45,482 nucleotides of DNA from Chrysochromulina tobinii (lineage: Eukaryota > Haptophyta > Prymnesiales > Chrysochromulinaceae): contig JWZX01002912.1 of NCBI GenBank assembly GCA_001275005.1, positions 1 to 45,482 of the forward strand, in the 5' to 3' direction. Position 1 is the first letter of the stretch. Each line of letters starts with the position of its first letter. Both the position numbers and the translations under genes were made by a program. Below, piece by piece: positions 1,618 to 44,211 of the stretch. The notes below the pieces were generated by a model. It did not search any database and was not told the DNA's origin. It saw only the letters and a list, made by a program, of their open reading frames with translations.

Positions 1618-4600
1618 TCACGAGCATCTCCACTCCTCTTCGCCATTCTCACCCACCACCACCAGGCACGAGTCCGACTGCTCGCCAGGGCTGGCGTTTA
1701 TCGTCGGCAGGTCGGCCTTGATCTCCGCCTGCACGGCCTTCACCTTGGCGGGGTCGCCAAGGTACCATCCCGACCGGAGCGGCCGCTCCGCCCACGGGGT
1801 CGCGATGGGCTGCAGCTGCTCGTCGAGCTGATACACGAGCGGCACGGCGTAAGGCACGTCGACCAGCGGGATCTCGTCAATCTCGAGCTGCTCGAGGTGC
1901 TTGACGAGGCCACGGAGCACGTTCTCCGACGCGACGACGAGGACCGTCGGCACCTGATGAGGGAGGCCATCAGGAGGTCATCGAAGGCAATCAAGAAGCA
2001 ATCAAAGGTCATCAGCGACCATCAGCGGCCATCAGAGGCCATCAGAGGCCATCAGAGGACCGTCCGCACCTCGTACTCCTCGCCACTCTCCGGGAGATCT
2101 CAATCTCAATCTCAATCTCAATCTCAAGATCAAGATCCGCACCTCGTACTCCTCGCCACTCTCCGCGCACGCCGCGCGCGCCTTGGCAACAGCGCGCTTC
2201 ATCGCAGGCTGCAGCTCGCCATACAGGAAGGGGAGCGTCCGCGCGGTGCAGTCGCGTAGCGACTCGGCGTCGGGGGGGAAAGGCAGTTCTACGAACTTGT
2301 CGTCCTCAAGGATGGAGCAGCTGCCGCGGTCGCGGTCGCTGTCGCTGTCGCTGTCGCGGTCGCGGTCGCTGTCGCGGTCGCGGTCGCGGTCGCCGTCGCC
2401 GTCGCCGTCGAAATCGCGGCCGTTGCTGCTCTCAGAGCTACCCTTGCTACTCTCGCGCAGACTGGGCTCCACCACGTCTTGGCACATCGCCTGCCACCTC
2501 TCGCTCAGCCCATCCGTCGCGCCGTATCGGCGATCGATCATCTGACGTCGCAGGGTTTCGTCCCACGGAGGCGGCCGGTCGTAGTACCCGCGACGCCACT
2601 TTTGCACTTGCTTGAGGCCGTGCCGATCAACGCACTCCGCTTTGACGAGACCAGTGAGCGCGCCGTAGTTTCGCTCGTTGAGCCGCCACGTGTTCCGGAT
2701 CGGCGTCCACTGCCATCGGCAGCAATCAGTAGCAATCAGTAGCAATCAGTAGCCATCAGTAGCCATCAGTAGCCATCAGTAGCCATCAGTAGCCATCAGT
2801 AGCCATCAGATCGGCGTCCACTGCCATCGGCAGCAATCAGTAGCCATCAGTGGTCACCTGCAAGTCCATCTCGTCGAGCGCGAGCCACGCTGTCTTCACG
2901 GCGCGCTGCAGCAGCGACGTGTAGAGCACCTGGTGGGGAGGATGGCGCCGTGGTGAGGACTTGCATGCAGCGCTGTCTTCACGGCGCGCTATAGCAGCGA
3001 CGTGTAACGCACCTCGATCTTATTGATGCCGACCCCCTTCAGCAGCTGGCCCGCGAGCCGTGCCTCATCGCGCCCGCGGCTGGTCAAGTCGGGGTCTGCC
3101 CAGCCGGTGAAGATTTTGTCGAGATTGTAGCGCGACTGTCCGTGGCGTAGCAGCACGAGCGCGCAGCGCACCTTTTGCTTCTGGTTGCGCACCTGGTGGC
3201 GGCGAGAGACGCGCTGAGAGATGGGTGGTGCGGCGCGGCGCGGCGCGGCGCGAGCAGCGCGAGCAGATGGGCGCAGATGGGCGGAGGTTGGCAGAGATTG
3301 GCAGAGATTGGCGGAGATTGGCGACAGCGGAGGGTGAGAGCAGCAGTGGAGGGTGGCCGCACGAGCCGCACGTATCTCCTCCCCCTTCGCGTTGGCTTGG
3401 CTGGCGGCTGGCGGCTGGCGGCTGGCGGCTGGTGGCTGGTTGCAGCGGTGGCGGCGGTGGCATACCTGCCGGTTGCGCGTCGCCAAGCGGAACTCGGCAA
3501 GTTCCGAACGCGCTGTCTTTTCTAGGCGCAGCGACTCCTGCCATATCAGGGAGGACGCGGAGTGGCAACTCAGCCGTCGCGACCGCAAGTGATCTAGAGG
3601 GGGAGACGGTGGCGGCGTGAAGACGCCCCATCCTTCCAAATATGGGAGGAGTTCACACCTGGAAGAAGTACGAGGGCGGCGTCTGCCGAACGGTGTAGGC
3701 CTCGCCCTCGATCTCCGCCAGCGCGCGCCCCGCCGTCTGCGCCGCGAAAGCCGCCTGCACCAAGTTGCCATCGGCGCTGAGTGGGGAGTACGCGATGTCC
3801 TGTCTCACCTGGTCCCTCATCGCAAGCTGCGCGGCGCGTACTCGCGCCTCGTCGCATAGGAAGCGCCCATGGCGGACGCAGCCCTCGCGGTCTGCCCAGA
3901 GGCCCTGCACGCGCACGTGCTTGAGGGTTTCGTCAAAGTCATAGAGCAGCGGCGTGCCCGTGGGCACGTCGAGGTGGAACACGTCGTCGTCGGAGATGCC
4001 GTCTAGCTTCTTGACGAGCGCGCGCAGCGTGTTGCCGTGAGACACTACGAGGACGGTCTTGCCGGCGACGAGGGCGGGCTGCAAGGTCTCTTGCCACAGC
4101 GGCTCCAGCCGGGCGCACACCATCCTCAGCGACTCCGCGCCGGGCACATCCGACGGCTCGTAGCGTGCATCCGCCTTGAAGGCCTTCTGCAACGGGTTCC
4201 CGTCGGGCAGCAGAGGAGGCAGCTCGTCGTACTTCCGACGCCAACCCATGACGGTGTCTTCGCCGTACTCCTGTGCCAGCTCACGCTTGTTCCGGCCCGT
4301 GAGCATGCCCGAGTGCTGCTCGTTCAGCTCGACGTGCTTGTGGACTGGGATCCAGCAGCCGTTCAGTGTCGAGAGCAGCAGCACGCTGGTCCGGATGGTC
4401 CGACGCATCATCGAGGTGTGCACCTCATCGACGTGAAGGCCCTCGGCCGCGATCAGGCGGCCAACCTCGCGCGCCTCTGAAATGCCCTGCTCCGTCAGAT
4501 CAACATCCACCCAGCCAGTGAACAAATTTGCACGATTCCATTCTGACTGTCCATGCCTCACGAGAATAAGCCGTGCGTGGGGCTCGCGGCTTTGCGCGAT

Positions 4601-4714
4601 TAGGTTGAGGCGGTGCGCTCTCGGCGGTGCCGAACGCGGCAGTGAGTGGTGCTGGAGTGGCACGAGCGCTGCTGCCGCTGTCGTGAGGAAGACCATGTGC
4701 ATTTTCTTTTGCAT
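1618..4714 (-). CDS. Tandem two-domain 2,3-bisphosphoglycerate-dependent phosphoglycerate mutase, 5 exons
   Basis: Exons (-): 4714-3659, 3192-3013, 2929-2858, 2709-2143, 1953-1618. All junctions are phase 0 and give 736 aa. Family role: interconversion of 3- and 2-phosphoglycerate in glycolysis. Residues 1-40 ([20 protein letters not shown], then basic/Ser-rich) look like a signal peptide plus transit peptide, so plastid targeting is possible. Domain 1 (~47-300) is complete: [10 protein letters not shown] with His54, LNEQHSG with Glu132, VVSHGNTLR with His226. Domain 2 starts in exon 2 with [10 protein letters not shown] (His369), [11 protein letters not shown] and [12 protein letters not shown]. 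The second catalytic His region reads VVASENVLR, so His is replaced by Ser634 and Gly by Glu. Domain 2 is therefore probably not a normal mutase. Exon 4 also carries an Asp/Arg/Ser-Asp low-complexity insertion (about 2316-2418). The fusion rests on splice sites and continuous phase; RNA would confirm it. Confidence 0.85.
1954..2142 (-). repeat. PGAM intron 4: duplicated exon junction, hexamer array and introner-like 3' end
   Basis: The 29-bp block 2136-2164 (donor edge) recurs at 2063-2091. The inner copy continues through GTGCGGACGGTCCTC, matching the start of the next exon, so it reads across the exon 4/5 junction without an intron. A TCTCAA array separates the copies (2095-2130). ATCAGAGGCC-type repeats follow (about 1985-2060). 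The intron ends TGATGGCCTCCCTCATCAG, the cassette shared with other genes here. Confidence 0.85.
2699..2857 (-). repeat. PGAM intron 3: duplicated acceptor region plus decamer array
   Basis: Bases 2699-2732 (spanning the acceptor) recur perfectly at 2810-2843, 111 bp away. Between them lie about nine tandem copies of a decamer, agCAATCAGT/agCCATCAGT on the plus strand. The intron is 2857-2710. Confidence 0.85.
2930..3012 (-). repeat. PGAM intron 2: exon-edge direct repeat, 43 bp
   Basis: The 83-nt intron begins with a near copy of the start of the next exon. Bases 2972-3014 and 2889-2931 match at 39 of 43 positions. The intronic copy has TAG where the exon has a CAG (Gln) codon, so it cannot be coding. 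Both copies carry an AG|GT-like edge that supplies a splice site. Confidence 0.85.
3193..3658 (-). repeat. PGAM intron 1 with simple repeats
   Basis: This 466-nt intron (donor GTGTGA, acceptor CACCAG) holds three separate short arrays: a GGCGC pentamer run (about 3228-3252), a TTGGCAGAGA/TTGGCGGAGA run (about 3289-3325) and a CTGGCGG run (about 3402-3445). No exon-edge duplication was noticed here. Confidence 0.7.
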
Positions 4715-5077
4715 AAGGTCACGTACTCGGTCGCGCTGGCCGCGTTACCCTGCTCCACGTGCGCGCGCGCGCGCGCGTGCCCTGGCGCAACAGAGGCATC
4801 CCCCGCGCAAAGGCAATCCGAAGTCCGCAAACTCTTCGAGATTCGGAGAGCTCGTACGGAAGTCAAGTCAGGTCAAGCCAAGTCGTGCGGAAGGGAGCGT
4901 CGACAGTGCCCAGAATGCACGTGCAAAGATGATGGCCGATTCCATTGATGCTTTCTTCTTTAGGAATCCTACTTTTGTGACGAAGACACCACGCCGCCCC
5001 CCTGACGAGCTCACCCCGTGTGTGTCCTGTGTGTCCCGGCTCCCCCCGGTGTCTTTGAACCGGCGGTTTGCCCTAAA
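4715..5077. promoter_or_regulatory. Divergent intergenic region between PGAM (-) and TPR protein (+)
   Basis: This 363-bp stretch separates two divergent start codons and presumably holds both promoters. It contains a short alternating (GC)n run near 4765-4778. No TATA box or known factor site stands out. The frame of the downstream gene is open from 5018, but only a GTG precedes the ATG at 5078. Confidence 0.35.
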
Positions 5078-35730: not shown

Positions 35731-35944
35731 AAGTCACTACACATACGTACGGGAATGGCATACAATCCACAACCCCATGTATGATGGGGCGTACAATTTT
35801 TGTTATACATGTAGTATTAAATACTTTTAATAGTTCAAAGGAGCGCCGCGCCTACATTACACTGACACAGGTGTGTGAAATGAGGGTCGAGAGAAGTGAT
35901 GAACAGCCAATTCACACTCAGTGGATGATCGTCGGAGCTCACAA
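35731..35944. other. AT-rich intergenic spacer
   Basis: About 35730-35840 is markedly AT-rich compared with its surroundings, with TTATACATGTAGTATTAA and ACTTTTAATAG. Likely a 3' flank plus promoter. Confidence 0.4.
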
Positions 35945-37507
35945 ATGCTGACGCCATTCATTTGCACGGCGCTCTCCTTCTGGGCGCTGCCAGTGCAGCG
36001 ACATTCTGCCGTCGTCGGGCTCCGCACGAGACGGCTGGCCTTGAACGCCGAACCACCCAAGGACTCGACCTCTGTGCCTGCCATGCCCGGTGTGCCCTCA
36101 TTTGAGCAGTTCAAGAAGATGATGCAGACGGACGTGTCACCGGAGAAGCTCAGCGTCGGCGAGAAGGTGCAGGCGGGGATTTCCCAGAGCTGGGTGAACC
36201 CCGCGTACTGGAGCCGCCAGTTTGTGCAGGCGTCGCACATCTCCAACAACGTGCCCAATGCGAGCCGCGTCGTAGAGCTGGGCAAGGACGCCAAGAACCT
36301 GTACTACTTGAACGCTCCGGCCGCGTGCACGCTGATCGTGCCGCCGAGTAACGCGAAGATCGAGGAGGGCCCGATCCGCGAGGCTGCCGCGAAGCTCAAC
36401 GTGCCCTTCACGCTCTGGACGGGCAAACCCCTCGATGAGATACCGCTGCGCCCGGGCGCATTCGACGCAGCTCTCTGCTTTGATATGCTCGATGGTGCGC
36501 CGGAGCAGGCGGCGGCGGGCGCGATCGCCCTGCTGAGCAGCAGCCTCGCGCCCAATGGGAGGCTCCTCTTCCTCGAGCGCGCGACCGTTGGTATGCCCGC
36601 CCTCGCACGCACGTACGGCGGCCTCAGCGTGCAGTTCGATACGGAGGGCGGATTCGACGTGGGCATCGGAACGAAGCCGGGGGTGGGCAAGCCCGGGGGT
36701 GCGAAGCGCAAGGCGGCGGCGGCGGCGGCAGCGGCGCAGCAGCAGCAGTCGGAGCAGGCACGCGCAGCCATGGCCGCCAAGGGAGGCTTTGGCGCCGTCG
36801 TGGGCACTCGGGAGGTGTCGAGGGAGGCGAGGGCGGCGGAGAAGGAGGCGAGGGCGGCGGCGAAGGCGGCGGAGAAGGAGGCGAAGGCGGCGGCCAAGGC
36901 GCAGGCGGAGGCGCAGGCGGAGGCGCAGGCGGAGGCGCAGGCGGAGGCGGAGGTGGCGGCAGCTGAACGGGCGGCGGCGAAGCAGCAGCAGCAGCAGCAG
37001 CAGCGGGCGGCGGCGGAAGCGGCGGCGGCGGCGGCGGCGGAAGCGGCGGCGGCGGCAGCAGAGAAGGCGGCAGCAGAGAAGGCGGCGGTGGAGGCTGCGG
37101 AGGCGGAGGCGCGGAGAGTGGCAGCGGAGACGGCCGCGGCAGAGGCAGCGGCCAAGGAAGCCGCGTTGCGCGCGGCTGCCCAGGCGAAGGCAGCGGCGGA
37201 CAAGGCGGCGGCGGACAAGGCGGCGGCGGACAAGGCGGCGGCGGACAAGGCGGCGGCGGACAAGGCGGCGGCGGAGGAGCAAGGTGCCGTGGCTGCGGCA
37301 GCTCAGGCAGCGGCGGCCGCGCAGGCGGAAGCGGCCGCCGCTGAGGCGGCCGAGGGCGAGTACATGCAGGTGTCATGCCCCAGCGAGCTCGGACCAGATC
37401 GGCTTCTGCGCGTGCAACTGCCCGACGGCCGGCTGTTCGATGTGGCCGTGCCCGAGGGCCTCGCGCCGGGCGACGAGTTTGTGGTTGGGCCGTTTCCGAC
37501 GGTATGA
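35945..37507 (+). CDS. Methyltransferase-like protein with TolA-like helix and C-terminal PDGR/PGD motif
   Basis: 520 aa from ATG 35945 (the upstream frame has only a GTG). The N-terminus (MLTPFICTALSFWALPVQRH, then RTRRLAL) looks like a signal plus plastid transit peptide. Residues ~70-240 resemble a class I methyltransferase with a weak SAM site: VVELGKDAKNLYYL, FDAALCFDMLDG, LAPNGRLLFLERATVGMPAL. The canonical G-x-G is missing. A 200-residue Ala/Glu/Lys/Gln helix follows, including a Gln run and five KAAAD repeats, as in TolA. The C-terminal ~45 residues (LLRVQLPDGRLFDVAVPEGL, then PGDEFVVGPF) match a short motif recurrent in algal proteins. Function unknown. Confidence 0.75.
   Translation: MLTPFICTALSFWALPVQRHSAVVGLRTRRLALNAEPPKDSTSVPAMPGVPSFEQFKKMMQTDVSPEKLSVGEKVQAGISQSWVNPAYWSRQFVQASHISNNVPNASRVVELGKDAKNLYYLNAPAACTLIVPPSNAKIEEGPIREAAAKLNVPFTLWTGKPLDEIPLRPGAFDAALCFDMLDGAPEQAAAGAIALLSSSLAPNGRLLFLERATVGMPALARTYGGLSVQFDTEGGFDVGIGTKPGVGKPGGAKRKAAAAAAAAQQQQSEQARAAMAAKGGFGAVVGTREVSREARAAEKEARAAAKAAEKEAKAAAKAQAEAQAEAQAEAQAEAEVAAAERAAAKQQQQQQQRAAAEAAAAAAAEAAAAAAEKAAAEKAAVEAAEAEARRVAAETAAAEAAAKEAALRAAAQAKAAADKAAADKAAADKAAADKAAADKAAAEEQGAVAAAAQAAAAAQAEAAAAEAAEGEYMQVSCPSELGPDRLLRVQLPDGRLFDVAVPEGLAPGDEFVVGPFPTV
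37195..37275 (+). repeat. 15-bp coding repeat (KAAAD)
   Basis: About five tandem units of GCGGCGGACAAGGCG inside the TolA-like helix, in frame. Confidence 0.8.
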
Positions 37508-37731: not shown

Positions 37732-40700
37732 ATGGCGACTTCTCTGTCGGCTCGTCTGTTCCTCTACGGCGCGGCCGGCGCCGTCGCGCTCTGCAGCTAC
37801 GTAGTCACGCGGCGCCGGCGTGCTCGAGCTGCCGAATGCGTCCAAGAACCAGAGCCAGGACCGCCGCGGGATCTCGTGGGCTACGGCCGCCGGCCGCCGC
37901 GCGCCGCTTGGCCAGCAGGCGCGGCCCTAGCAGTCAACTTTGCGATCAACATCGAGGAGGGCTCAGAACCGAGCATTCTCGACGGCGACGACAGGTCGAG
38001 CGGGGCACTATGCGAGTGCCCGAGCGAGGCGCCACCCGGCGTGCGCGACCTCGCCGCGGAGAACATGTTTGAGTACGGCTCGAGGGTAGGCATCTGGCGT
38101 TTGCTGCGCGCCTTTGAGCGGCGCTCGGCGCCCGCAACGGCGTTTGCGTGCTCGCTGGCGCTGGAGCGGCTGCCCGAGCTCGCGGCCGCCGTGCGCGACG
38201 GCGTCGCACGCGGCCTCCTCGACGTGTGTTGCCATGGATACCGTTGGGAGGACCATGTCGCGATGGACGAGGCGACGGAGCGATCTCGCATAAAGGCGGC
38301 GGTGGTCTCCCTCACGAGCACGCTCGGGGCGCCGCCCAAGGGCTGGTACTGCCGCACGGCACCCTCGATCCGCACGCGCCGCTTGCTCCTCGAGCACGGC
38401 GGCTTCGAGTACGATTCAGATGCCTACAACGACGAGCTGCCGTATTGGACTCGAGTGGTGACCTCCGATGGCGCCGAGCATTATCACCTGGTACGCGCCC
38501 CGTGATGTCGTTTCTGATGGCGTGTTGATCGCTTTCCGATGGCCTTCTCGAATGGCAGGTGCTTGATCCATACGGCCCGCTGATGACCTTTGATTGCCTC
38601 TTGATTGAAATACAATTGATGACCTCCTTGATTGCCTCCCTCATAGGTGCTGCCATACACACTGTGCACCAACGACTCCAAATTCGCGCCATTGATGACC
38701 TCCTTGATTGCCTCCCTCATCAGGTGCTGCCATACAATCTGTGCACCAACGACTCCAAATTCGCGCCAGGGCGCGCCTTCTCGACGGCAGATGACTTTTA
38801 CAACTTCGTTCGGGCCGCGGTCGATGCTCTGATCGAGGAGGCGGACACGACGGGCGTGCCCCGTATGCTTTCAGTTGGGTTGCACCCGCGTCTCATCGGG
38901 CATCCTGCACGTATCGGGTGAGTGCTCCTAATCGAGAGTGATTGGGGCCGTCATCAGCTGGCCGCCATCAGCTGATTGCTCTTGATCGAGAGTGATTGGG
39001 GCCGTCATCAGCTGGCCGCCATCGGCCGCTCCTGAAGACCCGTGCGATGTCGACCCCGTTGCACCCGCGTCCTTGCGCCCTCGGTGTTCCTGTGCTCGCA
39101 GCGGCTTGCATCAACTGCTCGACTATCTCATCGGGCTCGGTCCGAATCGAGTTTGGCTCGCGAAACGAGCGGACATCGCGTCTCATTGGCGGGCGCATCA
39201 TCCACCACCGGTGCTCGTGCCGAAGGCCGCTGCCCCGGCGGCGGAGGCGACGGAGGCGGGGGCGGCGGCGGCGGCGGTGACGGAGGCGGGGGCGAAGGTG
39301 GCGACGGCGAGTGCGGCGGCGGTGGTGGCGGCGGTGGCGCTGATCGAGGCGATGGTGGCGGTGACGATTGCGGCGACGGAGGTGACGATGGAGGCGGCGC
39401 ATGCGGCGGCGGCGGCGTTGCAGAGGGCGGTGGCCCTCCGTCAACGCCTCCGTCAACGCCTCCGTCAGTATGCCGAATCAGGAAGGCGGATCTACAACCT
39501 CCGCCACAACTTGAGTGCCGCCGCGACCATGAAAGCGTTCATCGACGCCTTTGAGGGAGGGGAGGGGAAGGAGGAGCTGCGGAAGCTGTTCCACTCAATC
39601 GACATCGACGGGAGCGGTGTCGTCTCGTCCAAGGAGTGGGGCAAGGCTATCGGGCAGCACTGGAAGCTGATGGGGCGTTTCTTTGGCGGGCTCACCGTTG
39701 GCGAGGTGGGCCAGATGTTCAAGAAGCTCGACGCGGACGGCTCGGGCGACCTCACGTGGGACGAGTTTGAGACTGCGCTGCAGCAGATGGACTGGAGCGT
39801 GCGGCTCGCTCAGGCCCTCGAGAGCCAATCTGGGGCGGCCGAGCTCAAGGCCTTGTGGGATCGTTTGGACAAGAACGGCGACGGCAAGGTCAGCGGCAAG
39901 GAGTGGGGCTCGGCGGTCCATGAGGACCAGCAGGTGATGGCCAAGTACTTTGGAGGGAAGGACCTCAAAGGGATTGGCAAGATGTTCTCCAAGATCGACG
40001 CCGATGGATCGGGAGATCTCACCTGGGACGAATTCGTCAACGGCTCGATTCGGCTCGTGCACTTGCCTAATTTGGACGAATTCGTCAAAGGCTCGATTCG
40101 GCTCGTCGCCGTCGCTACCGGCGACGCAGCCGGCGACGAGGCCGACGATGCCACTGCCGCGTCCTCGTCGGAGCTGCTCGATGCGAGATCTCGCGAGCAC
40201 CAGGGAGATCTCACCTCTTCGGAGCTGCTCGAGGCGAGATCTCGCGAGCTCCAGGGAGATCTCACCTCTTCGGAGCTGCTCGAGGCGGCGCCCTCTGCGC
40301 CGCCGCCGCCGCCCGTGCCGCGCCCCCATCTGCCATTCACGGGCCCCAGGCTGTTGATCACCGGAGGTGGAGGGTTCGTGCTTTCGCACGTCGTCGTGGC
40401 GTGGCTCGCCCAGGACGACGCGTCCCAAACCGACCTCACTGATGGATTGGCGCAAGGCGCCCAGGACGACGCACCTGCCGCCGCCACGCCCGCCGCCGCC
40501 ACGCCCGCCGCGAGGAGCGCTTCGAAAAAGGCGAGCGCGGCGTCTCCCCTCTCGAGCTGCGTCGTCTTCGATCGGCACTTCGACGCCGCCGCGCTCGCCT
40601 TCTTACGCGAAGCCCTCGCGAGCGGCCGGCTGCAGCTCTTCACAGGCGACGTGGGCGACGTTCACAGCTGGTCCCAGCTGGTCGACGCACACGGATCGCA

Positions 40701-43700
40701 CTTTTCCCACATGGTGCTCGGCGCGGCGCTCACGCCCACCGCGGACGAAGAGGCTCAACTCGGCGCCGAGGTGTTGCGCGTCAACTTCGTCGGCGTGCTG
40801 CATGCACTCGAGCTCGCGAGGAGCGGTTCCAAATTTGGGTGCCCCGCACTGCCACGCGTCGTGCTGGTCTCGTCGGACGCGGTGCGCTGATGACCTCTGA
40901 TGACCTCTCTGATGAGCCTCTGATGAGCCTCTGATGACTTCTGATGGGCCTCCGATGACCTCTGATGACCTCCGATGACCTCTGATGACTTCTGATGACC
41001 TCTCTGATGACCTCTGATGACCTTCCTCATTAGGTGCTCTCCGCCCCGGAGCTCGGCGGTGCTCTCCACTCACGCGAGCGCGACGCCAACCCCGACGCAC
41101 CGAGCGTGCCGCTGTACGCCCTCTCCAAATTAGGGAGCGAGGGCGTCGCCGAGCGCTACGCGTCGCTCTACGGCATCGAAGTGGTCTCCGTTCGCTTCAG
41201 CGATGTCTACGGTCCGATGGCGACACCGGTTGCATGCTGATTGCATGCTGATTGCATGCTGATTGCATGCTGATTGCCTCCCTCATCAGGGCCGATGGAT
41301 CGCGACACTGGCGCGCGCAACCGGCACAACGCGCCGTACCACGTGGCGACGAGATTGAGCCGAGATGAGCCGCTCGTAATCTCGGGCGATCTCGAGGACG
41401 TCGGATGGGATTACGTGGACGCGTCGAGCGTCGCGCGCGCCGTCGTGGCGTTGCTCACGGCGCCGACACGCCCGGGACGGCGCGTGTACGAGATCGCACT
41501 TGGGCGGCCAGTGACGCACGGTCAGTCTCGTTGATGGCCTCTGATTGCCTCGGATGGAGATCGCACTTGGGCGGCCAGTGACGCACGGTCAGCACACTTT
41601 GATGGCCCCTCTGATGGCTTCCACTGGACTACTTTAGCCTTGATTACATGCTGATTGCCTCTGATGGCCCTTTCCACTGGACACCCATCCTTGATTGCAT
41701 GCTGATTGCCTCCCTCATCAGGTGAGCTGCTCGCGGCGGCGCTCGAGCTTCCGCTGGACCATCTGTTGCAATCTCCGAGCTTGCTGACTGCTCGCGGCAT
41801 CAGCCTGGTGAGCAAGTCGGATGTTCACACCGCGGTAGCCCATGTTCACACCCTCCCGCCCGACCATTGGCTCCACGCACGCCCGCTCGATACGGCGCCC
41901 CTACTTGCCGAGTTTGGATGGCGTCCAACGCCTCTCGGGACCGCGATGGCGGAGTACATGGCGTGGCTGCGCCGGCAAGCCTCGCCCGGGACGACGCTGG
42001 CGCCCGGGACGACGCTGGCGCCCGGGACGACGCTGGCGCCCGGGACGACGCTGGCGCCCGGGACGACGCTGGCGCCCGGGACGACGCTGGCGCCCAACGA
42101 AGCAGCTGCCGCCGCCGCCGGCACCGCTACTGCCGCCGTGTCGACGGCCGGCGCTGCCGCGAGCGCGCCCTCAGCATCGCACACCACACTCAGCATTGCC
42201 CTCGACACCGCCTCCGGACTTCCGATGACGTGTCATCCACTCGCTGTGGAACTCTTTGGCCGACGGTTACAGCCACTAGGCCAGCGTGCGGTGAGAGCCC
42301 CTCATAGTGATTGCGACGGATTGCGACTCATGGCGACTGAGTGCGACTGAGTGCGACTGAGTGCGACTGACTATGTGCAGCTGAGCGTCTTCGTACTCTC
42401 CGAGATCGAGGGGCTACTCCATCCTTGATTGCATGCTGATTGCCTCCCTCATCAGCTGAGCGTCTTCGTACTCTCCGAGATCGAGGGGCTACTCCATCCT
42501 TGATTGCATGCTGATTGCCTCCCTCATCAGGTGAGCGTCTTCGTACTCTCGGAGATCGAGGGGCTGCGGGATGCCTTTGCGCTGGCTGGCTTCGATCCGG
42601 GATGCATGGCTTGGCTCTCTGACGCCATCAGTGGCACTCTGACGGTGGCGGACGTGCAGGTAAGTCTCGTTGATCGCCTCTGATCGCCTCTGCTTGCCTC
42701 TGCTTGCCTCTGATCGCCTCTGATCGCCTCTGATCGCCTCTGGTTGCCTCTGGTTGCAGGCGTGTCTCGAGCACGCGGAGGTGATCATCGGCGAGCCAAA
42801 AGGATCAACGCTCGAGCTGCTCGCCGCAGCGCCCAATCTCCGATGGTTCCAGGCACGTGATGATTGCATGACTGATTGCATGCTGATTGCCTCCCTCATC
42901 AACTGCTCGCCGCAGCGCCCAATCTCCGATGGTTCCAGGCACGTGATGATTGCATGACTGATTGCATGCTGATTGCCTCCCTCATCAGCTGCTCGCCGCA
43001 GCGCCCAATCTCCGATGGTTCCAGGCATGTGATCGACAGCAGACAGGCTGTCACGGCTGGAAGACCTGATTGCCTACCTCATCAGGCGACCTTTGCTCGC
43101 GGTCACGGCAGCTCAGCTGATTGCCTCCCTCATCAGGCGACCTTTGCTGGCTGTAACGGCATGATGAGCATGCCTCTGCCGGTCGCTCCTTTCGTGACGA
43201 CGCGGCTCGGTGGGGCCTTAGGTGCGGACATTGCCGAGTACGTGGCGGCGCACGTGCTTGCCCTCGAGCGCGGGCTCGGCGTGCATGCAAGCGCTCAGCA
43301 GCGCGCGGCGTGGCCCGATGACGAAACCCGCCGGCGCTCGTACCGGCGGCTCCCGTCGCTCACGCTCGGGATTCTCGGGCTCGGAGATCTCGGACGTGCT
43401 GTCGCTCAGCGCCTCGGCCCTGGATGCCTCGGCATGCGTATCGTCGGCCTTCGACGGACAGGCTCGTCCGCCGGCGGAGTCTCGTCAACCGGCGGAGTCT
43501 CGTCAACCGGCGGAGTCTCGTCAACCGGCGGAGTCTCGTCAACCGGCGGGGTCTCGTCAACCGAGATGGGCGCCCGTGGCCCAGCCGAGGAGCCGACGGA
43601 GGGTTTGGTCAGCCGTATCTACGGGCCGACGGAGCTCGCGAGATTCCTCGGCGAGTGCGACTACATCGTCTCGCTCTTGCCCGACACGCCGGCCAGCCGC

Positions 43701-44104
43701 GGTCTGCTCGACCACGACGCCTTGGCGCCGTGTGCTACGAAGCAGCCGGTGCTCATCAACGCGGGGCGTGGCTCGCTCATCTCCGAGGCGGAGATCACGC
43801 GAGCTCTCGATCTCGGCTATCTGCGCCACGTGGTCGCCGACGTCTTCATGACCGAGCCGCTCCCCGCGTCCTCGCCCCTCTGGCGCCACCCGAAGGTGAC
43901 CATCACGACGCTGATTGCCACTGATGACGCTGATTGCCACTGATGACCTCGCCCCTCTGGCGCCACCCGAAGGTGACCATCACCCCCCACGTCGCGGCGG
44001 TGACGAAACCGGCTGACGTGGTCGCTTGCTTTGGGGAGAACCTGAAGAGGTACGCGGCGGGTGAGCCCCTCAAGTATGTCTTCGATCTGGAGCGCGCCTA
44101 TTAA
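37732..44104 (+). CDS. Ten-exon fusion: PuuE-type allantoinase/deacetylase + EF-hands + SDR epimerase + D-2-hydroxyacid dehydrogenase
   Basis: Exons: 37732-38490, 38724-38917, 39102-40881, 41034-41211, 41290-41520, 41722-42290, 42531-42659, 42760-42852, 43137-43895, 43973-44104. They total 4824 nt, giving 1607 aa with all phases matching. Residues 1-25: possible signal anchor. ~45-350: PuuE-type polysaccharide-deacetylase fold (RDLVGYGRRPP, AINIEEGSEPSILDGD, CHGYRWEDH, YDSDAYNDELPYWTRV, LCTNDSKFAPGRAF, SVGLHPRLIG, DIASHWRAHHP). ~355-440: Ala-rich linker. Four EF-loops at 485, 528, 574 and 617 (DIDGSGVVSSKE, DADGSGDLTWDE twice, DKNGDGKVSGKE). Extended SDR from ~735: LLITGGGGFVLSH, YALSK (Tyr939, Lys943), VSVRFSDVYGPMDRD. 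D-2-hydroxyacid dehydrogenase ~1238-1607: PNLRWFQ, GLGDLG (1392-1397), INAGRGS, DVFMTEPLP, TPHVAA, i.e. catalytic Arg, Glu and His present. Exon 3 alone joins deacetylase end, EF-hands and SDR start in one open frame, so these parts are fused at DNA level. Ca2+ control is inference. Confidence 0.85.
38491..38723 (+). repeat. Fusion gene intron 1: exon-start duplication plus cassette
   Basis: The donor is GTACGC. The first 44 nt of exon 2 (38724-38767) occur with two mismatches inside the intron at 38647-38690. Each copy is preceded by the cassette (38629-38646 ending CATAG; 38705-38723 ending CATCAG). The upstream copy is therefore a possible alternative acceptor, but it runs into a different frame. 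Confidence 0.85.
38918..39101 (+). repeat. Fusion gene intron 2: 54-bp direct repeat
   Basis: GATCGAGAGTGATTGGGGCC and the following CGTCATCAGCTGGCCGCCATC are repeated (about 38931-38970 and 38985-39024). The 3' part also contains GTTGCACCCGCGTC, which matches exon 2 at about 38878-38891. The donor is GTGAGT. Confidence 0.75.
40160..40290 (+). repeat. 48-bp coding repeat between EF-hands and SDR
   Basis: Two and a half units coding SSELLEARSRELQGDLT. Just upstream, a DEFVNGSIRLV / DEFVKGSIRLV pair shows a second local duplication in frame. Confidence 0.8.
40882..41033 (+). repeat. Fusion gene intron 3: TGATGACCTC array
   Basis: The donor is GTGCGC. The body is a degenerate CTGATGACCT/CTGATGAGCC array. 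The acceptor TTCCTCATTAG is a variant of the cassette. Confidence 0.8.
41212..41289 (+). repeat. Fusion gene intron 4: exon-edge copy, 11-bp array and cassette
   Basis: The 78-nt intron begins GTCCGATGGCGACACCGG, a near copy of the exon 5 start (GGCCGATGGATCGCGACACT). It continues with four TTGCATGCTGA units and ends TGATTGCCTCCCTCATCAG (41271-41289). Confidence 0.85.
41521..41721 (+). repeat. Fusion gene intron 5: perfect 36-bp copy of the exon end and donor
   Basis: Bases 41490-41525 (exon end plus GTCAG donor) recur perfectly at 41557-41592, giving two equivalent donors 67 nt apart. The intron ends with the cassette at 41703-41721. Confidence 0.9.
41985..42092 (+). repeat. 18-bp coding minisatellite (PGTTLA x6)
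   Basis: Six identical CCCGGGACGACGCTGGCG units in exon 6, in the linker between the SDR and the dehydrogenase. Confidence 0.9.
42291..42530 (+). repeat. Fusion gene intron 6: 75-bp units carrying exon start plus cassette
   Basis: After a GTGCGACTGA array, a 75-bp unit occurs twice (42381-42455, 42456-42530). Each unit is ~43 nt of exon 7 start followed by TTGATTGCATGC and the cassette. The true exon 7 begins at 42531 as the third copy. Each unit brings its own CAG acceptor. Confidence 0.9.
42660..42759 (+). repeat. Fusion gene intron 7: TGATCGCCTC array
   Basis: The donor is GTAAGT and the acceptor TTGCAG. The body is about eight degenerate decamers TGATCGCCTC/TGCTTGCCTC/TGGTTGCCTC. Confidence 0.85.
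42853..43136 (+). repeat. Fusion gene intron 8: 86-bp tandem copies, GC donor
   Basis: The end of exon 8 (starting CTGCTCGCCGCAGCGCCCAA at 42817) recurs at 42903 and 42989, exactly 86 bp apart, each followed by GATTGCATGACT-like sequence and the cassette. The exon 9 start (GCGACCTTTGCT) is also pre-duplicated at 43086. The phase-0 junction requires the donor CAG|GCACGT, a GC-AG intron. Confidence 0.8.
43467..43563 (+). repeat. 18-bp coding minisatellite inside the Rossmann fold
   Basis: About five tandem TCAACCGGCGGAGTCTCG units coding GGVSST lie in exon 9, just after VGLRRTG, i.e. directly after the second strand of the dehydrogenase NAD-binding fold. Confidence 0.9.
43896..43972 (+). repeat. 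Fusion gene intron 9: 37-bp direct repeat forms both splice sites
   Basis: A 37-bp block containing CACCCGAAGGTGACC occurs around 43869-43905 and again 77 bp downstream (43946-43982). The intron runs from the AG|GT of the first copy to the AG|GT of the second, and its length equals the repeat offset (77 nt). Confidence 0.92.
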
Positions 44105-44211
44105 GTCATGTCAAGTCAGCCCCTCAAGTATGTCTTCGATCTGGAGCGCGCCTATTAAGTCATGTCAAGTCAGCCCCTCAAGTATGTCTTCGATCTGGAG
44201 CGCGCCTACTG
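44064..44211 (+). repeat. 54-bp triplication of the fusion gene's stop-codon region
   Basis: Units start at 44064, 44118 and 44172. Each begins AGCCCCTCAAGTATGTCTTC and repeats the last 13 codons plus TAA (third copy TGA). Only the first is joined to the gene. Confidence 0.9.

Follow-up and report, generated by a model that had tools for sequence, protein, structure and literature searches.

A predicted multi-enzyme protein of Chrysochromulina tobinii built on a PuuE-like hydrolase joined to an extended SDR

Gene model and domain content

The window analysed here is a whole stretch of 45,482 nucleotides from the haptophyte Chrysochromulina tobinii (assembly GCA_001275005.1, contig JWZX01002912.1), whose forward strand carries at 37732..44104 a gene predicted to encode a single protein of 1607 amino acids. 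In this product a PuuE-like hydrolase, a block of four EF-hands and an extended short-chain dehydrogenase/reductase (SDR) follow one another in one open frame, and a D-2-hydroxyacid dehydrogenase is probably joined to them by splicing; a small cyclic amide or imide may be its substrate. The features are as follows.

37732..44104, forward strand: whole gene, 10 exons, 1607 amino acids, predicted from splice sites and homology
37732-38490, 38724-38917, 39102-40881, 41034-41211 and 41290-41520, forward strand: exons 1-5
41722-42290, 42531-42659, 42760-42852, 43137-43895 and 43973-44104, forward strand: exons 6-10
37864..39213, forward strand: PuuE-like (NodB/CE4-type) hydrolase domain, residues 45-355, exons 1-3 (TIGR03212; PDB 1z7a and 3cl6)
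39214..39510, forward strand: Ala/Val-rich linker of GC-rich simple repeats, with a hydrophobic stretch at residues ~380-414 (Tandem Repeats Finder, TRF; hydropathy)
39519..40076, forward strand: EF-hand block with four loops, a 558-bp copy common to a second locus of the genome
40354..41984, forward strand: extended SDR (NAD-dependent epimerase/dehydratase family), residues ~736-1136, exons 3-6
41983..42095, forward strand: in-frame 18-bp tandem repeat, 6.3 copies (APGTTL; TRF)
42189..42290, forward strand: conserved linker between SDR and dehydrogenase, residues 1204-1237, reaching the exon 6 donor (alignment to relative P0001)
42534..44101, forward strand: GhrA-like D-2-hydroxyacid dehydrogenase, residues 1239-1607, exons 7-10 (2-Hacid_dh_C)
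43463..43563, forward strand: in-frame 18-bp tandem repeat, 5.6 copies (GGVSST), inside the NAD domain of the dehydrogenase (TRF)

Independent splicing from splice sites and homology gave ten exons starting at 37732 and ending at 44104, with 1608 codons including the stop and phases agreeing at all nine junctions, and thus reproduced the exons, ends and phases proposed by an earlier sequence-only reading of this DNA. Eight of the nine introns are GT-AG, and intron 8 (42853-43136) is GC-AG, fitting only with a GC donor. Exon 3 (39102-40881) forms one stop-free frame that leads from the end of PuuE across the EF-hands to the SDR, again as that reading had described, and the PuuE-EF-SDR fusion is certain at the DNA level.

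A Pfam scan of the spliced product matched all four expected domains: EF-hand_1 (1.7e-22; 77.7 bits, cut-off 25.4), Epimerase (3.7e-19 at residues 736-1040; 69.5 bits, cut-off 20.9), 2-Hacid_dh_C (1.1e-33 in two stretches, the best at 1474-1572; 116.5 bits, cut-off 25.1) and Polysacc_deac_1 (1.5e-5). The first domain aligned over residues 45-352 with positions 2-296 of the NCBIfam model for allantoinase PuuE, TIGR03212, that is, over the full-length PuuE region, at 2.1e-95 and 319.2 bits, under the equivalog cut-off of 424.6; it also matched the solved PuuE chains 1z7a (2.1e-85) and 3cl6 (2.5e-80). The dehydrogenase matched the solved chain 3hg7 at 1.2e-40, its solved relatives including glyoxylate/hydroxypyruvate reductases, and stayed below the equivalog cut-offs of NF041369 (1.3e-37) and GhrA PRK15469 (4e-33; 114.8 bits against 403). 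With 2.1e-85 over the full PuuE domain and 1.2e-40 for the dehydrogenase, these domain identities lie far beyond chance. Matches of the SDR to solved chains were weak, 2.5e-9 at best, and the NCBIfam search of the product reached no sugar-enzyme cut-off for it.

The catalytic motifs were located in the spliced product. The SDR carries TGGGGF at 738 and YALSK at 939, its Tyr939 and Lys943 being invariant in two alignments, with and without the window sequence, and the dehydrogenase retains Arg1522, Glu1551 and His1570, residues with presumed catalytic roles in the two families. Splicing and domain searches thus bear out the multi-enzyme fusion with intact motifs that the sequence had first suggested. 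The dehydrogenase shares its family and catalytic set with the GhrA-type glyoxylate/hydroxypyruvate reductases, but differs from the GhrA equivalog in its score and in the repeat inserted in its NAD domain.

The join between hydrolase and SDR recurs elsewhere. Among 48 SDR relatives matched, of which 37 were inspected as sequences and 11 were not, seven (P0002, P0004, P0005, P0011, P0037, P0043 and P0044) hold a PuuE C-terminus and an SDR in one open frame; P0004 differs, by eye, from the window's own exon 3 in a single residue, and the other six lack the EF-hands. The remaining inspected relatives begin at or within the SDR part, except P0007 and P0009, which begin at the EF-hands, and all these may be stand-alone SDRs or single exons. 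Since the PuuE-SDR join lies within one open exon and recurs in one frame in seven other proteins, it is firm; by their kinship to the window, these fusion relatives are probably algal.

Bacterial counterparts and the history of the parts

Bacterial and archaeal genomes were scanned with an SDR alignment, which gave 11 loci, 8 of them used and three (L019-L021, 24% identity) left out, while a scan of viral contigs gave one weak match (L022). In searches at E 1e-40, with the query genome counted, related SDRs turned up in 6 genomes among 385 sampled from the class to which genome G006 belongs, and in 2 among 274 from that of G001. The resulting set of neighbourhoods comprised 18 SDR-centred loci (8 + 10), several of them short contigs and with queries drawn partly from the same loci. 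A PuuE-like gene was present in the stretch read in four of the 18 (L011, L016, L017 and L073), a 2-hydroxyacid dehydrogenase in four (L013, L014, L017 and L072, the SDR of L072 carrying internal stops), with a short remnant in L016, and a 2-oxoglutarate (2OG)-Fe(II) dioxygenase in seven (L011, L012, L014, L016, L017, L068 and L073). At L011 and L073 the stop codon of the PuuE-like gene overlaps the start codon of the SDR gene in the letters ATGA, and the SDR and dehydrogenase genes overlap in L013. Intact genes of all three enzyme types occurred together only in L017. The pairs in L011 and L073 and the PuuE/dehydrogenase/regulator/SDR cluster of L017 thus set the same enzyme types side by side, but as separate genes, with no EF-hand seen and with a dehydrogenase of another clade.

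Other neighbours recurred as well, namely a classical SDR and a DJ-1/AraC-type regulator, which we take to be GlxA-like. ABC transporter genes, dipeptide-type as judged by sequence reading and not by family search, lie in L011, L016 and L017; L014 carries DHDPS-family and VOC genes, and L073 has a VOC gene as well. Also in L073, MlrC-type and M24 peptidase-family genes lie between the PuuE-SDR pair and a tryptophan halogenase family gene (2671-4194) located ~5.6 kb away. The 5-kb SAR202 contig L012 bears two distinct SDRs of the family at its ends (3960-4937 and 3-725), which flank a 2OG dioxygenase and a classical SDR.

In a midpoint-rooted tree of 36 hand-chosen SDR rows, the window SDR and 13 relatives formed a clade (100/100) that joined the bacterial clade L011/P0027/L073/L012 with support 97/94, leaving the remaining bacterial SDRs of the tree outside. 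The PuuE tree, from which the partial P0011 and three duplicate loci were left out, did not settle the order of the fused, the bacterial SDR-linked and the canonical groups. In a dehydrogenase tree of 51 of 543 matches plus three cluster genes, the fused dehydrogenase joined P0049-P0052, apart from the cluster dehydrogenases of L014, L017 and L013. The SDR clade with the bacterial pair, together with a dehydrogenase placed outside the clusters, suggests that the SDR shares its history with the bacterial PuuE/SDR pair, possibly along with the PuuE domain, and that the dehydrogenase was recruited separately. The idea, raised from the sequence alone, that the enzymes derive from a bacterial gene cluster therefore survives in part: the ATGA overlaps and the SDR clades speak for it as regards PuuE and SDR, whereas the dehydrogenase tree argues against descent of all three domains from one bacterial operon. 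The bacterial clusters and the window combine PuuE and SDR with dehydrogenases of different clades, which would fit a shared pathway.

Proposed function and competing explanations

The whole is best explained, in our estimation with slightly better than an even chance, by a protein that channels successive steps in the breakdown of a small cyclic amide or imide. The locus would encode one nuclear multi-enzyme protein in which a PuuE-like hydrolase is joined to an extended SDR, an arrangement also found in other proteins and mirrored by two overlapping genes in two bacterial genomes; a GhrA-like D-2-hydroxyacid dehydrogenase would probably have been added downstream through exons 6-7 in this lineage, and the EF-hand block, common to a second locus, would have been copied in recently. 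The three enzymes may act in succession, the SDR oxidising a ring alcohol or acting on the opened product, the PuuE-like domain hydrolysing a ring C-N bond and the dehydrogenase using NAD(P) to interconvert the 2-hydroxy acid so formed and its 2-oxo counterpart. The fusion may hold reactive intermediates within one complex. The EF-hands lie outside the conserved machine, and their role in this lineage would not go beyond tuning or localising the enzyme.

This proposal is drawn by analogy to nicotinate catabolism in Aspergillus nidulans, where, according to the portions of the source consulted, the SDR HxnW produces a cyclic imide, whose ring HxnM then opens to give a 2-hydroxy acid amide, the closest structural homolog of HxnM being HpPgdA, itself related to PuuE (PMC9304392). 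A PuuE-related hydrolase there acts directly after an SDR, and because its product is a 2-hydroxy acid amide, a 2-hydroxyacid dehydrogenase would naturally follow; the Hxn gene set as described also includes a 2OG dioxygenase, as do the bacterial SDR loci (PMC9304392). In contrast to the window, HxnM and HxnW are separate proteins, the portions consulted mention no 2-hydroxyacid dehydrogenase, and HxnM is likened to the window's domain by description. A bolder version, in which one polypeptide would carry out every step that leads from a cyclic N-heterocycle to a 2-oxo acid (SDR first, cyclic imidase second, 2-hydroxyacid dehydrogenase last), with a PuuE-SDR core common to probably algal proteins and a rare bacterial pair and four new EF-hands possibly bringing Ca2+ control, appears unlikely to hold in full.

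Several points weigh against the proposal. The substrate and the order of reactions are guesses, and the window SDR is of the extended type whereas HxnW, as described in that source, is classical. No second SDR-dehydrogenase fusion was found when residues 731-1607 were searched at E 1e-3 against 7987 candidates of ~884-2812 amino acids, a search that would miss intron-split genes; the nearest dehydrogenases, P0049-P0053 (42-58% identity), read as stand-alone; and the closest bacterial SDRs, L011 and L073, have no dehydrogenase in the stretches read. For the PuuE domain, an approximately unbiased (AU) test that left out three more distant rows rejected none of the possible groupings (fused with SDR-linked, p-AU 0.114; fused with canonical, 0.126; the two bacterial groups, 0.384), and two of the three scored SDR-linked bacterial copies exceed the allantoinase cut-off of 424.6 (L041, 435.7 bits; L042, 425.7; L043, 416.2). 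The window moreover holds the sole match in its genome when its own PuuE domain is the query, and no metal allantoinase scored over its cut-off in that genome, where a split candidate on contig C684 reached 64.9 of 357.85 bits with its best piece, its exons being scored apart.

The last three of these observations, together with the full-length match to TIGR03212 and the PDB chains, are what would be expected if the PuuE domain were simply the alga's allantoinase, with the GhrA-like domain disposing of the resulting glyoxylate, as the glyoxylate/hydroxypyruvate reductases among its solved relatives would allow. We consider this rather unlikely. The window shares the EEG, HGYRW and GLH.RLIG segments with the PuuE allantoinases of P. 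fluorescens (3CL6) and P. aeruginosa (1Z7A), but its score lies under the equivalog cut-off, it is fused to further enzymes, and two segments are altered: NDMRF of the solved chains has become NDSKF in the fused proteins (NDSK or NDTK in the bacterial SDR-linked copies) and the GRTGPNT segment RTAPSIRT in the window. Furthermore, all three tested genomes with an SDR-linked PuuE-like gene (G001, G006 and G007) carry a second, higher-scoring PuuE of 502-552 bits, which, together with the changed NDMRF segment, suggests that the SDR-linked and fused domains have a substrate other than allantoin. The label allantoinase-like accordingly stands as a statement of full-length homology, while an allantoinase activity is putative; and the amidohydrolase-like fold once ascribed to this domain gives way to the NodB / carbohydrate-esterase-4 barrel that PuuE has according to the part of the literature consulted (PMC10967932).

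The join to the dehydrogenase depends on the splicing of exons 6-7, and the nearest dehydrogenases that read as stand-alone would suit a misjoining of two genes, in which PuuE-EF-SDR ends near 42347 and the dehydrogenase is separate, starting from a leader exon that has escaped notice. Intron 6 contains partial copies of exon 7, which make the splice choice an inferred one, and these and the GC donor required at the intron 8 junction point the same way. Against it, there is no in-frame ATG between the upstream stop at 42501 and the start of exon 7, the gap between the two parts is 240 bases only, and the exon 6 tail past the SDR aligns with the relative P0001 at a score of 114, where 500 shuffles reached 39 at most, the similarity ending no more than three residues from the end of exon 6, as a shared splice site would make it end. 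With an exon 7 that lacks an in-frame start and a linker conserved in P0001, the join through exons 6-7 is probable, and a misjoining is improbable.

No greater chance is given to a glycan enzyme, that is, a polysaccharide deacetylase fused to a nucleotide-sugar epimerase/dehydratase and acting on surface glycans. The generic Pfam names Polysacc_deac_1 and Epimerase would suit it, as would the several sugar-nucleotide enzymes among the nearest solved SDRs that have a name, but those matches are the weak ones given above, no sugar-enzyme cut-off was met, and the bacterial neighbours in L011, L016 and L017 are transporter genes, apparently dipeptide-type, and a 2OG dioxygenase.

The EF-hand block has four canonical 12-residue loops, at residues 485, 528, 574 and 617; the near relative P0007 retains all four, the first with a single change, and the shorter P0009 has part of the block. 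Its DNA (558 bp, 39519-40076) is 95% identical to G000:C2155:48983-49540 of the same genome, where the copy, within a 1707-amino-acid open frame, shows 93% amino acid identity over query residues 25-206. Given this identity and the absence of EF-hands from six PuuE-SDR fusions, the block most plausibly entered the linker by a recent insertion, copied from elsewhere in the same genome, the direction of copying being taken from the absence in kin; the linker's GC-rich repeat (39236-39434), for its part, has dozens of genome matches at 66-83%. The predicted calcium part would thus be a recent decoration of the PuuE-SDR core, and Ca2+ control of the enzymes is possible, outside the conserved architecture; as a core function it was dropped on the C2155 copy. 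The calcium-switched channelled pathway first proposed from the sequence is accordingly weakened and seems most improbable, since its four canonical loops, although retained in P0007, sit in a repeat-rich linker in a block that is recent and missing from those six fusions.

Introns, novelty and meaning

Five of the nine introns end precisely in GATTGCCTCCCTCATCAG (38706-38723, 41272-41289, 41704-41721, 42513-42530 and 43119-43136), a sequence with 12 matches at no more than two mismatches in the whole window against none in 100 shuffles, and the genome contains 643 occurrences of the 20-mer CTGATTGCCTCCCTCATCAG but 0 of its reversed control. By its sequence and recurrence this is a repeated, introner-like intron end, and introners are known from Chrysochromulina sp., as stated in the part of PMC9860276 consulted. 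TRF found tandem copies of 77, 75 and 86 bp across exon-intron borders (38615-38768, 42378-42565 and 42817-43033), so that introns 1, 6 and 8 hold copies of adjacent exon sequence, as expected if introns grew by tandem duplication; a 54-bp unit spans the final codons and stop in 2.7 copies (44064-44208; TRF). Upstream of the gene, an open frame at 35903-37507 would encode 534 amino acids with a long Ala/Glu/Lys-rich repeat.

In the open-licence literature of PubMed Central (PMC) we found no description of an allantoinase/EF-hand fusion protein or of a gene cluster of PuuE and a 2-hydroxyacid dehydrogenase, nor any account of the pathway that the PuuE-SDR core would serve or of a complete route of this kind in one polypeptide. 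The fusion is unusual, and its PuuE-SDR core is built from known enzyme families. A domain list alone, read as allantoinase plus Ca2+ switch, can mislead here: the EF-hand block is a datable example, at 95% DNA identity, in which a regulatory-type module has been copied into the linker of an enzyme. The PuuE-SDR fusion and the ATGA-overlapping bacterial pair point to one same pathway, so that a search for the substrate could start from the bacterial operon, and its outcome could be applied to the eukaryotic fusion.

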